Part shown: piece by piece, positions 4,027 to 18,740 of the stretch | Layout: every line of letters begins with the position of its first letter | Position numbering within the stretch: position 1 is the first letter of the stretch | Source of the DNA: a virus | Strand: one strand, 5' to 3' | Virus record (IMG/VR): IMGVR_UViG_3300009285_001742 | Location: 1 to 30,992 of that record | DNA: 30,992 nt | Notes under the pieces: model-generated | The model's database searches: none | What the model was told of the DNA's origin: nothing | Seen by the model: the letters and a program-made list of their open reading frames with translations, nothing else | Made by a program: the position numbers and the translations under genes

Positions 4027-4809
4027 ATGCAGATCAAAGTCATCCGGGTCTTCGTAAGGGATAACCATGAAGGCGCTCCGACTGCCGCCATCGACGGCGA
4101 CGCGTCTTCAGGTTACATGAACGTCTCCTTGTCGCGGCCATGCGACGTCGCGTCGACGCTCGCGCGCTACCTGAACGAAGCGTTCAACATGCGTCACTAC
4201 TCCGAGGAGAAGGCGTGCGAGGAGGTCGCGCGCGTTGCAGCGGCCTTTCTGACAAGCGCGGAAACCCATGCGGGCAGCCCATTCCAGCACGTCGGCTGCG
4301 TTACGATCGGACGCGGGCCCTACCTGCGCGTGGTCTACAGCTCCATGGGATCCTCCCTGGGCATCAGCGTACCCAGCACCTGGGAAGGGGAAATGGCAAC
4401 GGTGCGCAATCTGTTGCGCGCAGACTTCGTCGGCCTGTCCTACGCCACGTACGATCATCTCCGGCAGGGCGTCGACCGCTGGATCAAGCAATACATCACC
4501 AGCGAAACAGCCCCCGTGTTCTGGCATGACGCCACGCTTGTGCCGGCTCCCATGCAGAAGATCGAGAACTACACCACGAGGGATCTCAAGGCCGTCACCG
4601 CTGCCTACATGGACCCCTTCGAGGCCAACAAGATCGCCGGGACCAGCGCAGCCACCGGGACCGACGAGAACTCGCTGACCGCAGCCGCCGACCGGGCCTT
4701 CCGGTTCCTCGCGAGCCTCGACCTTCACTACCACCCGATCCGGGACCAGAAGGAGTACCTGGAGGTCGTGCGGCAGCTCCAGGGTGCGCTCAGGCCCAAC
4801 GAGCGTTAA
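4027..4809 (+). CDS. Unrecognised 260-residue protein
   Basis: ATG 4027 is preceded by a strong AAGGAGA site, which fixes the start. N-terminal residues (MQIKVIRVFVRDNHEG) form a likely first strand. The middle (TIGRGPYLRVVYSSMGSSLG) suggests a beta-rich domain. The C-terminal third is helical and repeatedly aromatic/acidic (ADRAFRFLASLDLHYHPIRD). I do not recognise a family or catalytic residues. It is the largest gene in this small-gene array and is followed ten bases later by the first of two tandem paralogues. Confidence 0.6.
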   Translation: MQIKVIRVFVRDNHEGAPTAAIDGDASSGYMNVSLSRPCDVASTLARYLNEAFNMRHYSEEKACEEVARVAAAFLTSAETHAGSPFQHVGCVTIGRGPYLRVVYSSMGSSLGISVPSTWEGEMATVRNLLRADFVGLSYATYDHLRQGVDRWIKQYITSETAPVFWHDATLVPAPMQKIENYTTRDLKAVTAAYMDPFEANKIAGTSAATGTDENSLTAAADRAFRFLASLDLHYHPIRDQKEYLEVVRQLQGALRPNER

Positions 4810-4819
4810 CGGCACAGCC

Positions 4820-5131
4820 ATGAGCCCGGACGCGCAACAAACCGCACGCGTCGCGTACAACGCGATGTGGACAACGCACTGGAGCGCCTACTACATGTGC
4901 TGGTGCGCGGTCCGAGCTGATCTGAACCCGGAAGCTTGTCCCGACGCACGCACGCTGACGTCCGCGCTGGTTCTGTTGGCGGAGACGCATCACGGGTGCG
5001 GCGGGCTTACTCTCCCAGGAGAGGCTGCGGCGTACAACGACTGGCTTCGCGAGGCGACAGGCTTCTGGAGGCGTGTGTTGGACGAGCTGCGTGCTATGGA
5101 CAACCGGCGCAATGCATACCTCATTGCCTGA
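4820..5131 (+). CDS. Small paralogous protein, copy 1
   Basis: 103 residues from ATG 4820. The core WSAYYMCWCAVRADLNPEAC and the later WLREATGFWRRVLDEL recur, changed but in the same order, in the next gene, so the two are tandem duplicates. Shared features are an aromatic/Cys-rich N-terminal helix, an ADxNPEAC turn and a C-terminal W-L-x-x-x-T-G-[FY]-W-R helix. The function is unknown; the aromatic helices suggest a protein-binding or small helical-bundle fold rather than an enzyme. Confidence 0.6.
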   Translation: MSPDAQQTARVAYNAMWTTHWSAYYMCWCAVRADLNPEACPDARTLTSALVLLAETHHGCGGLTLPGEAAAYNDWLREATGFWRRVLDELRAMDNRRNAYLIA

Positions 5132-5153
5132 ACACGGACTGAGCCCAGTGAGT

Positions 5154-5414
5154 ATGGCGCATGCTGCTATCAGCGTAGCGTGTAGCCTACAATGGAGCCC
5201 ATACTTCTTGTGCTGGCTGGCGTATCAAGCTGACGTAAACCCAGAAGCGTGTTCTGACGTAAGCACAATGGAGCAGGTGTTTGTCTCGCTCGCGGCAGCA
5301 TGTGATCGTGCGAACAACACCGCGTTCCTTGTTGAGTGCTCTAGTTGGCTCGACAGCGTGACGGGTTACTGGAGAGCCGTGTCTGAATGCATACATCACA
5401 TGGAGCGCGTCTAG
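5154..5414 (+). CDS. Small paralogous protein, copy 2
   Basis: 86 residues from ATG 5154; GTG 5148 and ATG 5112 (overlapping copy 1) are alternatives, and alignment with copy 1 slightly favours a start near 5148-5154. WSPYFLCWLAYQADVNPEAC and WLDSVTGYWRAVSE match the same blocks of the upstream gene. The two copies have diverged at most other positions and codons here are noticeably less GC-rich than in copy 1, hinting at an old duplication or different origin. Function unknown. Confidence 0.55.
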   Translation: MAHAAISVACSLQWSPYFLCWLAYQADVNPEACSDVSTMEQVFVSLAAACDRANNTAFLVECSSWLDSVTGYWRAVSECIHHMERV

Positions 5415-9948: not shown

Positions 9949-10758
9949 ATGGACCTCGGCATCGCGACAGCTTCAATCACCCGGATCTTGAATGCGCATT
10001 GGGCTGATGTCGTAGCTTCTACGACGCCCGACTTGCTTCCTGTGAGTGAGACGCGCGGGCGCAAAGCAAAAGCGTTTACGAGTTACGGTTGTGGCCACTA
10101 CGGGTGCGTGTTCCCGACGAGCAGGCCCAACGTCGTGCTCAAGATCACGACGGACCCCAGCGAGGCGGAGTTCGTCAAGACGGCCATGCAGATCGGCCGC
10201 TGGCCCGACGGCATCGTCGTGTACTACCAGATCAAGGCCATTGGCGACACGTACCGCGGTCGCGGCGTACATCTGATCTGGCGCGAGGAAGCGCACAACA
10301 TTGACGAGTAGTCGCTGCCGTTCAATCGAGACATCGACGAGTATACCAAGCGCACGCGTCGCGACTTCTCGCATCGACTACAGGCGTTCAAGCTGCACGC
10401 GCACCAGTTCAGGGCGTACGCACAACACGGCGCCAAGGTTGCCGAGATCTCCAAATACAAGCAGTGGGCGTGGAACAACGTCGACCTGGACAGCGTTGAA
10501 GGCGTCGGGAGGTTCAACCGCTGGAAGGGCGCCCAGGCCGCTGCCGCCCACCTACGCGCCTGCGAGATCCTTGCTGAGATGACGGCGAACGAGCCCGAGG
10601 GTTACCTCGTCGGCCAGGCGCTGGACTTCTACCTCGAGCGCGGCCTACTGCTGGCCGACGTCCACGCCAACAACGTCGGCGAGGTCACGCGCGATGGATA
10701 CCATGGTCCGATCCTGGTGATCACCGACCCGGGACATCTGGTGCGCGTGCCTGCCTAG
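9949..10758 (+). pseudogene. Kinase-like gene interrupted by one in-frame TAG
   Basis: ATG 9949 (GTG 9943 is an alternative) reads 120 codons to TAG at 10309-10311; the same frame then continues open for 148 codons to TAG 10756-10758. Across the break lies a full protein-kinase-like fold: the Gly-rich loop GCGHYGCV, a lysine strand VVLKITTDPSEAEFV before the TAG, and after it LLLADVHANNVG (D-x-H-x-x-N catalytic loop) and VITDPGH (metal-binding D-P-G). The second half has no start codon until ATG 10579, so it cannot be made whole on its own. Either a single base change killed the gene, or TAG is read through. Other genes here end in TAG, so the code is standard. Substrate unknown. Confidence 0.75.
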
Positions 10759-10759
10759 C

Positions 10760-10774
10760 ACACGCGGCGCGTGT
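10760..10774. promoter_or_regulatory. Small inverted repeat after the kinase-like gene
   Basis: ACACGC (10760-10765) and GCGTGT (10769-10774) flank GGC, giving a six-base stem directly after the TAG and 18 bases before the next ATG. There is no T-run, so a classic terminator is unlikely; an operator or mRNA-processing hairpin is possible. Confidence 0.35.
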
Positions 10775-10791
10775 TGTGGTAGGATGTTGCC

Positions 10792-11130
10792 ATGGCTACC
10801 AAGCGAAAGAGCAAGAGCTGTCGCAATGGTCGTTGTGGGCTCGGTCGTGCTGTGTCCAGCGGCGCGATGCTCATTGACGAGGTCAAGCGCTGCAACTCGC
10901 ACTTCTTCGACGCCGACACCATGCGCTTCTTCAAGTCGCGCCTGCTCGAGGTCTTCCCGTCGAACAAGCAGAACGCGACGTACTTCGTGACCTCGGAACA
11001 GGGCCCGAACAACGTGCGCGCCTACAGCGTACGCAAGTTCGCGAGTTGCAAGGTCAACACCGTCGGCGAGTTCCAAGGCTACGCCACGGCGGCGCAAGCA
11101 AAGGCCGCTGCGCGTCGCTTGGCCAAGTAG
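10792..11130 (+). CDS. Small phage protein with basic Cys N-terminus (DUF7447-like)
   Basis: 112 residues from ATG 10792. The C-terminal part, MRFFKSRLLEVFPSN, YFVTSEQ, RAYSVRKFASCKV and VGEFQGYATAAQAKAAAR, fits a small phage protein family that I remember as DUF7447; the label is from memory. The fold looks like a short beta sheet followed by a helix. The first 18 residues (MATKRKSKSCRNGRCGLG) are very basic with two Cys and resemble the starts of the two tiny basic proteins at 9559-9834. Function unknown. Confidence 0.6.
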   Translation: MATKRKSKSCRNGRCGLGRAVSSGAMLIDEVKRCNSHFFDADTMRFFKSRLLEVFPSNKQNATYFVTSEQGPNNVRAYSVRKFASCKVNTVGEFQGYATAAQAKAAARRLAK

Positions 11131-11133
11131 CCA

Positions 11134-11409
11134 ATGGACAACCCGGCGCAGTGGGCGCCGCTTGTCACGGCGCTGATCGTGGCCGGGATGGCCTTCGGCA
11201 CCATGAAGATCCTCGTCAAGGAGCTGGAGCGCCGCGTCGAGCGGCTCGAAAGCAAGGTTGACGAGCTGGTAGCCCTGGTCACGACCAAGGTCATGCAGGT
11301 GGGCTCGCTCGAGGAGGAAGTCCATCGCCTGCGCGAGCGCTACCACGATCTGGCGAACCGTATCACGGCGGCGCTTCTACGGAGCGAAGTGAGGGCGAAG
11401 GACGCCTAG
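11134..11409 (+). CDS. Membrane-anchored coiled-coil protein
   Basis: 91 residues from ATG 11134, three bases after the previous stop. Residues about 7-26 (WAPLVTALIVAGMAFGTMKI) form one membrane helix; residues 28-80 are a continuous charged heptad-like coiled coil (ELERRVERLESKVDELVAL...). This is the outline of small phage inner-membrane proteins, including some holin or spanin components, but no lysis gene is adjacent, so only 'membrane coiled coil' is justified. The last 47 bases overlap the end of the convergent sigma-like gene. Confidence 0.6.
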   Translation: MDNPAQWAPLVTALIVAGMAFGTMKILVKELERRVERLESKVDELVALVTTKVMQVGSLEEEVHRLRERYHDLANRITAALLRSEVRAKDA

Positions 11410-12034
11410 TGCGGTACACCCCCATCCTGGCAAGCCCGCGCGCTTCGATCTGCCTGATACGCTCACGCGTCAAGTCCAGCCCGTCGCCGATCTCCTGCAA
11501 CGTCTCGCTCGCGCCTGTTAGCCCCCAGTGACGCTCGATAATTGAGCGCGTGCGCGGGTCGAGCGCGTCCATCCGGCCGTCGTCACGCGCGCGTCTGATC
11601 TCAACCAACAGCGGCCACAGGTGGGCGGGAACGTCAGGCACTTCGGGCAATCCCAGGCGCTGCAACCGTTCTGCTTTGCTGACTGCCGCTACACGCTTGC
11701 GCCGATAGCGGTCGACCCGTTTCTCGATGCCGCGAATGCGCGGCAGCCAATAAGGTATCGCCGCGCCCGGGTACAGCCCCAGGTAGACCAGCATGCCGTA
11801 CACGTACGAAGAAGCCAACGCCGCGCTGCGGATTCCACACAGTTCTCCGACCTCGCCTTGCGCGACGAACGGCTCGCCACCCAGGCAGAAGTAGCGGCTC
11901 GTCACGCGGGCTGCTGGGCAGCCAGCCTGGATCGCCTCGTTGAGCTTGGCTCGGACTTGAGGCGAGCGCAGACGACGCGCGTAGTCTTCGTACCCGTCAA
12001 CGCGCAACGCCCATATGCGCTGGATCGACCTCAC
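11363..12034 (-). CDS. Sigma-factor region-4-like regulator
   Basis: 223 residues. GTG 12034 overlaps the upstream TGA as GTGA. Residues 157-204 (ALDPRTRSIIERHWGL, then LQEIGDGLDLTRERIRQIEA) match sigma-70 region 4: an L-x-x-R-x-R-x-I-I helix, then the L-x-E-I-G...T-R-E-R-I-R-Q-I-E helix-turn-helix that reads the -35 box. The first 155 residues resemble neither region 2 nor region 3 in an obvious way; residues 60-100 are hydrophobic (YVYGMLVYLGLYPG). It may be a phage sigma-like factor, an appropriator of host polymerase, or a repressor using the same HTH. Confidence 0.6.
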   Translation of the reverse strand: MRSIQRIWALRVDGYEDYARRLRSPQVRAKLNEAIQAGCPAARVTSRYFCLGGEPFVAQGEVGELCGIRSAALASSYVYGMLVYLGLYPGAAIPYWLPRIRGIEKRVDRYRRKRVAAVSKAERLQRLGLPEVPDVPAHLWPLLVEIRRARDDGRMDALDPRTRSIIERHWGLTGASETLQEIGDGLDLTRERIRQIEARGLARMGVYRTRRPSPSLRSVEAPP

Positions 12035-15184: not shown

Positions 15185-15810
15185 TTGGCCTCCGGGAAAG
15201 TGTCGCGAAGCCAGCGACCGACCAGATCCAGCACTGACTGCACCCGTGGGTACTTCTTGTCGGTGGTGAAGCCCTGCGCGCCGAAGCTCATGCCGACGAG
15301 CTTGTCGGTGAAGCAATGGATGGGCACGCCGTGCTGCAGCCCCAGCGAGATCGCCATGGCGGCGCCGTCGAGCGCGCCGTGCGCAGTCGTTCCGACCTTG
15401 TCAGCGTGGATGAACAGCTCGCCGGGGCGGCCGTCCGGGTAGGTGCCGACGATCGCGTAGATCTGGATGTCGGCCTGCTCCTCCCAGCGGTGCTTGCACG
15501 CTGGGCAGACGTTCGCGCGCGGGGACTTATGTAGCTTGAAGCTGCGCGTGATCGAGCTGCGTTCGTCAGGTAGCCTTTCGCGCCGAGCTGCGCTCGTAGC
15601 GGGCACCGGCGGCGATGGGGGCGCAGACGCCGCAGGCGTCGGCGCAGGCGTCGGCGCAGTCGTTACCTGGCGGAGGAGGTCGTGCGCAATTATGAGATGC
15701 TTCGCAACGCGCACCTTGCTGACGCGGCTGTTGAGCAATGCGATGGCCTCCGTGACGACCACCAGCGAGCGCGCGACGGCGTCGGCCGCCGACATCACAG
15801 GTCTGCCCAT
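15181..15810 (-). CDS. TSCPD-domain protein
   Basis: 209 residues, ATG 15810, overlapping the polymerase end by 16 bases. Residues about 1-50 are helical; 51-75 a Pro/Ala linker (TAPTPAPTPAASAPPSPPV). From about 100: CPACKHRW, GRPGELFIHADKVGTTAHG, AAMAISLGLQHGVP, MSFGAQGF and VQSVLDLVGRWLRDTF. This order matches the TSCPD domain found at the end of B12-dependent ribonucleotide reductases and as a free phage protein. No reductase is in the window, so it may assist or regulate a host or distant phage enzyme. The CxxC differs from the usual C-terminal cysteines. Confidence 0.65.
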   Translation of the reverse strand: MGRPVMSAADAVARSLVVVTEAIALLNSRVSKVRVAKHLIIAHDLLRQVTTAPTPAPTPAASAPPSPPVPATSAARRERLPDERSSITRSFKLHKSPRANVCPACKHRWEEQADIQIYAIVGTYPDGRPGELFIHADKVGTTAHGALDGAAMAISLGLQHGVPIHCFTDKLVGMSFGAQGFTTDKKYPRVQSVLDLVGRWLRDTFPEAK

Positions 15811-18740
15811 GACTTGCCTACCTTGACGTCACACGGAAACTTCACCGTGACGCCGTTGTGCGTGTACTCGCGGTTGAAGTGCTTGTTGACCAGTTCCTTG
15901 ACGCGGTCCGCGTCCTGCTCCCAGCACTCGTACACGATGGCGTCGTGGATCTGCAGGATGGCCTCGCAGCCGTCGGGGACGTCGTCGGCCATGAAGTCCA
16001 TCAGGCCCTCGGCCATGATGTCAGCGCCGGATGACTGCACGCCGAAGTTGTAGACGTCGGTGGGGCTGGCGTTGCCGAGCGGGAATGCACGGCGCCGGCC
16101 GAAGAGGAAGCTGCGGACCTCGCGCTCGTTGGCAGCGCGTTCGAGGAGACGCTCGTGCCAGGCGGTGACGCCGGGCATGTTCGCAACCATCATCTGTACC
16201 ATGGCCTGGATGTCTGAGAGCTTGACCGTCGGGTAGTCCCTGACGACAGCCTTCCAGGCGGTTTCAGGCTCACCGCCGTAGAAGCTGCAGTTGTGAGACA
16301 GGTACCCCTCGGCGATGAAGGTTTCGCTGGTGGTCTGCAGCGAAACGACGTCGTGCATGCCGATCAGCTCTACGGCTAGCACACGAGAGCCTGGCCCCTC
16401 GCTGCGCTGAAGCACGTCGCCGACCCGGACTGCTTCAGCGCGCACCCAGCTACGCGTCGGTTGTGAAACCCACAGGTGGTCGTGGCTAGAAACTAACTCG
16501 CTGCTGGTTGTTACAATGCGGTAGCACGGCTTGCGCAGCAACTTGGCGCGCGTAATTGTCGTGGGTCGGAAGTCCTCGCCCGGCTTTGATACGCTGAAAC
16601 CCACCAACTGGTCGCCGCGTACCAGTGTCTCGATCGGCTTCCAGCCGAGCGCGCGCGTGAGGACGCGCGTGCCCGGAGCAACGCAGTACTCCGGTCGCTT
16701 GACCATGTCACGCAGCTCCTTACGCTTGTCGATACCCACCTGATCAAAGTTCGGCCAGACGACGCGCGCGAACTCCGAGTGGATGTCCTTGTTATTAGCG
16801 AACACGTTAACTAGCCACGGATCGCCTGATAACAGGGCTATCAGACGCGCTTCGAGCTGCGCGAGATCGAACCCAACGAACGTGAACCCATCCGGTGCAA
16901 CAACTTGACGGCGCAGGTTGGGCCGCTTGGTGCCCTTCTTCCCCTTGGTGTGATTCTGCATCGCAGGCGCTTCAGATCCCCAACGCCCAGAGATCTTGTG
17001 TACCGACCACCGCGGATGGATGCGATCGTGCGCATCCATGTAGTGCGGCATAGGCTCAACAAACGTCGAATGGAGCTTCTGTGCCTCACGGTAGTCGAGC
17101 AGCATGCGCACTTCCGGCACGACCGCCAAGTCCTCGAGCAGGTCTTTACGCGTCGACGACTTGCCGGAGTCGGTGAGGATGTGCGGCAGCTTGATGCGCC
17201 GCGCCTTCAGGTACGCCGCGATATGCGCCGACGCGCCGATCTTGAACTCAAACTTCTTCTTCTTCTTGGTGTTGGCGATCCACGCCTTGATCTCTTCGAG
17301 GCGCACGTCGATACGCTTGCCGATGTTGTCGTCGTCGTCCTTGCGCTTGGTGATGGCCTGCTCGCGCGCGAGCTTCTCGCAGAAGCGATCCCAGACCTCT
17401 GGCTCGTGAACCGAGGCCAAGATTGCCGTCTGCGTGCGCTTGATCTCCGCCAAGAAGCCGTCGGCCAGCTCGGTGTTGACCTCGCGGCTGATCGGCACGC
17501 CCACAATCGACATCCGGTTGGCGACGAGCGCCATCTTCCGGTCGACCTCATAGGTGCGGTCGCCGCGCGACTGCTTGACGCAGCCCAGGAGCGGCTTGAC
17601 GAGCCGCGCCGTCACGGTCGTGTCGATGGCGTTGTAGCGCAGCAGCTCTTCGACTGCTGCGTCGTCGTCGCCGCGGTACTCGCTCTTCCAGGGCGGGATC
17701 ACGAAGAACTGCGTCGCGACCTGCTGCAGCCCATGGGCGAGCCCCGGGAAGGCGTTGTGGTGCATGAGCAGCGTGTCGTGAACGCTGCCCTGGACCTTCA
17801 TGTCGTGGTAGTGCAGCACCGCGAGGTCGTACAGACAGTTGTGGAAGACCTTGTCGATGCTCTTGTCCGCCAGCAGGCTCTTGATGATCTGCTTGGCCGG
17901 TTGTGACACCGTCGACCAGGCGATGCTGATCCCGTAGCCCTCTGTCGCGAGGCCGATCGCCGACAGCTTGGCGAACTGCGTCTCGAGCGCGCTGTGCTCC
18001 TCGTCGAGGCAGAACGTCTCGGTGTCCACCGCAATGAAGCCCGCCGAGCGCGCGTCGACCTGGAACTGCTGCAGCGCGCGCAGTGCTCCCAGCTTGTCCG
18101 TGGCGAACGTCTGGATGTCCTCGGTGAACTTGACCGCACGCCCAGAGGCGATGTCGTTGACCTTGCGGACGTGGTAGACGAGCGACCAGAAGGACAGGTC
18201 GGCGGCGTGCGCGCCGGTGCCAGACCCGCCGCGCAGGATGGCCGCGGGGTGGATGGTCGGGATGACAGGACGCGTGCCGAGCCCGGCGTTCTCGACGTCC
18301 ACGTCGTGGTAGGTGCCGCTCAGCTCAGTGATCGAGAACTTGTCGCCGAGGAGGCCCTGGGCCGCGACCGCGCCCATCGCCAGGACGGGCACGCCCGGGA
18401 ACTGCGCCAGCTCCGCGTTCAGGCGCGCGCGGCAGCAGGCAGCGGCGATCTTGCGGTGGTCGTCGGGCGAGCCGGGGCGCGGCAAGCACAGGCTGGCGTT
18501 GCTGATCCACAGCCGGCTGCGGTTGACGCCGCACAGATCGAGCGCGCGGTTGAACAGCTCGCCGGACGGGCCAATGAAGGGCATGCCCTCGAGCGCTTCG
18601 ACCTTACCAGGACCTTCGCCGATCGCGATCCACAGCGGGTCCGTCGGGCCGATGCCTTGCACCAGCCGGGTGGCTACGCCCTGGGTCGCGAACGGACACT
18701 CCGCGCAGTTGCCGCCGACGTCTGGACCGCGAATCACCAT
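15795..18740 (-). CDS. polA: Uracil-DNA-glycosylase/DNA polymerase I fusion with mini-intein
   Basis: 981 residues, ATG 18740, GGGAGG upstream. Residues 1-180: family-4-type UDG with four Cys (12, 15, 85, 102/103) for an iron-sulfur cluster, GEGPG (41-45), PFIGPSG and IHPAAIL. Then a proofreading domain: VDTET (D239, E241), HNCLYDL and YNAIDTTVT. The polymerase domain has motif A FDLAQLEARL (D625, E630), motif B R677-x3-K681-x3-Y685, and motif C QIHDAIVYE (D933). A 132-residue intein (686-817) interrupts motif B after Y685; splicing restores CSFYGGE. The mature extein is about 849 residues. Tyr at the E. coli F762 position predicts weak ddNTP discrimination. Both catalytic units look intact. 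Confidence 0.88.
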   Translation of the reverse strand: MVIRGPDVGGNCAECPFATQGVATRLVQGIGPTDPLWIAIGEGPGKVEALEGMPFIGPSGELFNRALDLCGVNRSRLWISNASLCLPRPGSPDDHRKIAAACCRARLNAELAQFPGVPVLAMGAVAAQGLLGDKFSITELSGTYHDVDVENAGLGTRPVIPTIHPAAILRGGSGTGAHAADLSFWSLVYHVRKVNDIASGRAVKFTEDIQTFATDKLGALRALQQFQVDARSAGFIAVDTETFCLDEEHSALETQFAKLSAIGLATEGYGISIAWSTVSQPAKQIIKSLLADKSIDKVFHNCLYDLAVLHYHDMKVQGSVHDTLLMHHNAFPGLAHGLQQVATQFFVIPPWKSEYRGDDDAAVEELLRYNAIDTTVTARLVKPLLGCVKQSRGDRTYEVDRKMALVANRMSIVGVPISREVNTELADGFLAEIKRTQTAILASVHEPEVWDRFCEKLAREQAITKRKDDDDNIGKRIDVRLEEIKAWIANTKKKKKFEFKIGASAHIAAYLKARRIKLPHILTDSGKSSTRKDLLEDLAVVPEVRMLLDYREAQKLHSTFVEPMPHYMDAHDRIHPRWSVHKISGRWGSEAPAMQNHTKGKKGTKRPNLRRQVVAPDGFTFVGFDLAQLEARLIALLSGDPWLVNVFANNKDIHSEFARVVWPNFDQVGIDKRKELRDMVKRPEYCVAPGTRVLTRALGWKPIETLVRGDQLVGFSVSKPGEDFRPTTITRAKLLRKPCYRIVTTSSELVSSHDHLWVSQPTRSWVRAEAVRVGDVLQRSEGPGSRVLAVELIGMHDVVSLQTTSETFIAEGYLSHNCSFYGGEPETAWKAVVRDYPTVKLSDIQAMVQMMVANMPGVTAWHERLLERAANEREVRSFLFGRRRAFPLGNASPTDVYNFGVQSSGADIMAEGLMDFMADDVPDGCEAILQIHDAIVYECWEQDADRVKELVNKHFNREYTHNGVTVKFPCDVKVGKSWADL
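16290..16685 (-). other. Mini-intein coding segment in polymerase motif B
   Basis: This in-frame segment encodes 132 residues from Cys 686 to Asn 817. It starts CVAPGTRVLT (block A, nucleophilic Cys), has VTTSSELVSSHDHLWV (block B with its His) and ends ETFIAEGYLSHN before the +1 Cys (blocks F and G, His-Asn). No LAGLIDADG or HNH homing endonuclease is present, so it is a natural mini-intein that cannot move by itself. Insertion between Y685 and the Cys of CSFYGG splits the O-helix, so unspliced enzyme should be inactive. Confidence 0.88.

Follow-up and report, generated by a model that had tools for sequence, protein, structure and literature searches.

The window analysed here, all 30,992 bases of a metagenomic virus record (IMG/VR IMGVR_UViG_3300009285_001742), is probably a genome fragment to judge from its record class. 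On its plus strand lies a reading frame in which 120 codons, an internal TAG and a further 148 codons are closed by a second TAG (table 1). The codon score is clearly positive in this frame only (0.43 and 0.54 for the two halves), and the base directly after the internal TAG is a T. Beyond that stop the first ATG, GTG or TTG is the ATG at 10579, codon 90 of the second half; a CTG at 10315 is the sole alternative start near the TAG. The window has 201 in-frame stops flanked on each side by 40 open codons, of which the one at 10309 alone combines strongly coding-like DNA on both sides with the lack of a start within ~10 codons. The original prediction described a single kinase-like gene split by one amber codon, with the glycine-rich loop and lysine before the TAG, the D-x-H-x-x-N and D-P-G motifs after it in the same frame, and no start in the first 89 codons of the second half. 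The translation agrees on every one of these points and, moreover, both halves match the same protein of another phage, L018 (N-lobe half, 44% identity over 112 aa, E 1e-31; C-lobe half, 47% over 146 aa, E 1e-36), in a family whose near full-length members are unbroken.

Table 1. Coordinates of the kinase-like frame, its motifs and the adjoining gene in the window
Feature	Position	Strand	Remarks
Whole kinase-like frame, one TAG inside	9949..10758	+	Start alternatively GTG 9943; L018-L023, L032, L035 and L036 align across
N-lobe half	9949..10308	+	N-terminal helices, glycine-rich loop and V-L-K strand, to hinge W-R-E-E-A
Glycine-rich loop G-C-G-H-Y-G-C-V	10087-10110	+	Residues 47-54
V-L-K strand, K65	10141-10143 (K65)	+	
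In-frame TAG just after hinge	10309..10311	+	Sense codon in 9/9 full-length relatives compared
C-lobe half without early start codon	10312..10755	+	
Catalytic loop L-A-D237-V-H-A-N-N242	10651-10674	+	
D260-P-G-H motif	10726-10737	+	
Natural end of frame, again TAG	10756..10758	+	Further in-frame TAG at 10780, 7 codons on
Next gene, DUF7447 (PF24239 / phrog_4655)	10792..11130	+	Function unknown; context only

The family to which this gene belongs is not easily detected. Single-sequence searches with each half and with the whole frame recovered no IMG/VR relative, and their best matches among phages had E values of 0.01 or worse; Pfam and sequence searches of solved structures with the kinase frame returned nothing credible. 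The relatives were found by three rounds of alignment-based search, seeded by weak matches to Nickievirus proteins that run across the TAG. These proteins (phrog_3809; Pseudomonas phages nickie, ZY21 and hairong) resemble the window frame in the G-loop, the V-L-K strand and a final I-T-D-P, with about 24-34% identity along much of its length; they differ in being intact and about 200 aa long, in their diverged catalytic loop and in being annotated only as hypothetical protein. Nine near full-length relatives with the same motifs and 30-44% identity over the full frame were obtained, eight on viral contigs in IMG/VR (L018, L019, L020, L021, L022, L023, L035 and L036) and one, L032, in a metagenome-assembled Thermomicrobiales genome, the only genome of its order in which the kinase gene was found; L025, L026, L028 and L031 are farther relatives. 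Unlike the window copy, the nine have no stop codon at the hinge. They are open through the position of the TAG, which in a ten-sequence alignment falls on a variable column right behind a conserved W-R-E-E-A-x-x-V-G, just past the hinge between the two kinase lobes, and they have various residues there. A homologue ending naturally at the TAG, the pattern named at the outset as incompatible with a split gene, was thus not encountered among the nine, all of which cross the position with a sense codon.

The window's DNA polymerase recurs, at 42-47% identity, on the contigs of L019 and L035, and we therefore regard these as related phages with an intact kinase gene; the records of the kinase relatives yielded no copy of the neighbouring DUF7447 gene. 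The polymerase itself (DNA polymerase A, 15795-18740, minus strand) has an N-terminal uracil-DNA glycosylase-superfamily domain and, at residues about 686-818 of its core, an extra HINT/intein-like insert of ~133 aa. This insert matches Hint_2 at an E value of 0.0025, below the cut-off, has no evident endonuclease part and is absent from the related phages G002 and G008. Elsewhere in the window, a small protein containing a sigma-70 region 4 domain is encoded near the kinase gene (11363-12034, minus strand), two adjacent ORFs (4784-5131 and 5073-5414) are diverged copies of one another, and an integrase-like ORF (925-1698) matches PF00589 only as far as position 133 of the 172-position profile; its catalytic-tyrosine end is thus seemingly missing, with no continuation seen in other frames.

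Structure prediction for the frame, read through the TAG on the basis of a 14-sequence alignment, gave a model of high quality (pLDDT 91.7, pTM 0.89) with a two-lobed protein-kinase fold; a single-sequence prediction (pLDDT 35) was not used. The matches of the model among solved structures are protein kinases, the best being PKR (VIA-align Z 10.9, 3.2 A over 153 residues), with global TM-scores of only 0.2-0.4; among its viral Foldseek matches are proteins annotated as kinases in phages such as Enterobacter phage IME278 and Ralstonia phage RSB1. The ATP-binding residues G47, G49, G52, V54, V63 and K65, the catalytic D237 and N242 and the metal-binding D260 and G262 are all invariant in alignment A6, D-P-G standing in place of D-F-G. 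The frame is therefore predicted, from sequence and model, to be the gene for a small two-lobed phage protein kinase with all the usual catalytic residues. Its closest characterized analogue is the gp0.7 kinase of T7 (phrog_15752), likewise phage-encoded and with an ePK-like N-lobe and catalytic loop; seven of the 14 aligned members match this family weakly (best E 1.7e-4), whereas the window protein, at E 0.29, falls short of a match. The window frame differs from gp0.7 in its D-V-H-x-x-N catalytic motif with D-P-G rather than D-F-G, in being broken and in ending 6 residues after D-P-G-H, without the C-terminal domain by which gp0.7 shuts off host transcription. Host RNA polymerase, translation factors and RNase III are substrates that the T7 kinase modifies; the enzyme is non-essential under normal laboratory conditions (PMC4858673). 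Purely by analogy with T7, the intact enzyme could phosphorylate proteins of host gene expression early in infection and so redirect that expression.

If the gene had long been dead, the half downstream of the TAG might be expected to show it. The ratio of C-lobe to N-lobe identity between the window and its relatives is 0.70, versus 0.61 +/- 0.10 among the relatives, and the window's terminal branch makes up 7.2% of the tree built from the N-lobe and 6.0% of that built from the C-lobe; at about 44% identity even the nearest relatives are too distant for such figures to gauge recent selection. By these sequence comparisons the downstream half shows no decay or excess change and appears in line with its intact relatives. 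Since it is undecayed, the TAG should be either young, or an error, or read through, and the observation fits an assembly error or a read-through stop as well as it fits a young nonsense mutation.

The window copy is not the only broken member of the family. In L029:1554-2415 and L030:5920-6781, which come from two metagenomes and are identical over the gene, the N-lobe and C-lobe of a kinase relative lie in different frames that meet at the hinge; the frame change is ~eight codons from the point equivalent to the window's TAG, and an ATG of its own is present in the C-lobe frame. The L030 record also gave a match to DNA polymerase that contains an internal TAG; at E 7e-4 it was weak and was put down to chance. 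In L013:5001-5234 all that is left of the kinase is a stretch of the N-lobe (48% identity), lying between other ORFs. Because other family members are also broken, and because nothing positive supports recoding, we favour a young nonsense allele: a recent loss of function in a dispensable phage kinase gene is, on balance, probable. The TAG would then be a real and recent mutation just past the hinge, and ribosomes would make only the 120-residue N-lobe, which should be unable to act as a kinase. Tolerance of such a loss would presumably reflect an accessory status of the gene, comparable to that of the T7 kinase in normal laboratory conditions.

The original prediction left four options: a recent nonsense mutation, sequencing error, programmed readthrough, and suppression by an amber tRNA of host or phage. 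The first two fared best. An error of consensus or assembly seems to us unlikely but worthy of some weight; the kinase of the real virus would then be intact, with a sense codon in place of the TAG, which would have entered the contig as an incorrect base or through the collapse of a mixed population. The fully conserved downstream half is what an intact gene would show, and the sequence, probably a fragment, comes from a metagenomic virus record. Substitution errors are, however, rare in short-read assemblies, and the scan of the window showed no second internal stop without explanation and hence nothing that points to a poor consensus, the one short-looking integrase-like ORF aside.

Programmed readthrough or amber suppression, which would yield a short N-lobe form alongside the full kinase, is a decidedly less probable explanation. 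It accords with the conservation of both halves, and there are reports of seemingly selected internal stops in prokaryotic genes (PMC7918605). Positive evidence for it did not emerge: a search of the window for tRNA genes came up empty, the scan of its in-frame stops brought up no second internal TAG without explanation, and the RNA around the TAG has no unusual or stable fold, that downstream being less structured than shuffles (z 2.1). A TAG followed by T is a context that favours termination, and we know of no use for an N-lobe alone. Also against readthrough are the sense codons of the relatives, the fact that the gene itself ends in TAG with another such codon close behind, and the use of TAG to end about 19 of the 40 gene-like ORFs of the window. 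The phage that holds L018 offers no amber suppressor either: the array in its 182-kb record (L073, G001:113400-131400) comprises 38 predicted tRNAs serving most amino acids, none of them for amber or any other stop codon.

The proximity of the breaks in the window and in L029/L030 is suggestive of more than coincidence and may be chance, which is a fair explanation because the searches were N-lobe-anchored and the cases few. That the family is repeatedly cut at the hinge to a functional end, a regulated short N-lobe form being made beside a full or two-chain kinase, strikes us as quite improbable. Still less credible is a split kinase whose lobes, cut at the hinge, are made as separate chains and reassemble: the nearby frame change and separate ATG of L029/L030 and the lone N-lobe stretch of L013 would suit it, but the window's C-lobe has nothing better than the CTG as an early start, all other relatives are single-chain, breaks this close carry by our estimate a ~7% chance of coincidence for the pair, and N-lobe-anchored searches favour the finding of such remnants. 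The standing given to each of these alternatives is our own judgement.

A changed genetic code (amber-recoded, code 15) was rejected. As the original prediction had reasoned, it is unlikely because TAG ends so many genes here and the window is without a tRNA, although one may lie outside the fragment; the kinase has the only unexplained internal TAG, and elsewhere the genes that TAG closes have in-frame neighbours from separate families, for example a helicase followed by a deoxynucleoside kinase. The kinase, the DUF7447 gene and the next ORF (9949-11409) also share one frame and are parted only by TAG codons, as are several other neighbouring genes; such runs probably reflect chance together with the ATGA overlaps by which TGA-ended genes meet their neighbours out of frame.

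Were the stop read through, or the cut functional, the locus would represent a rare case of a phage kinase under translational control. If the broken copy is an ordinary null allele, all it would show is that the kinase gene can be dispensed with. Most likely the broken copy itself is ordinary and nothing exotic; it belongs to a largely unannotated phage kinase family, marked by a distinctive G-C-G-H-Y-G-C-V loop and a D-P-G motif, that extends across phages of IMG/VR and a single contig assigned to a Thermomicrobiales genome bin.
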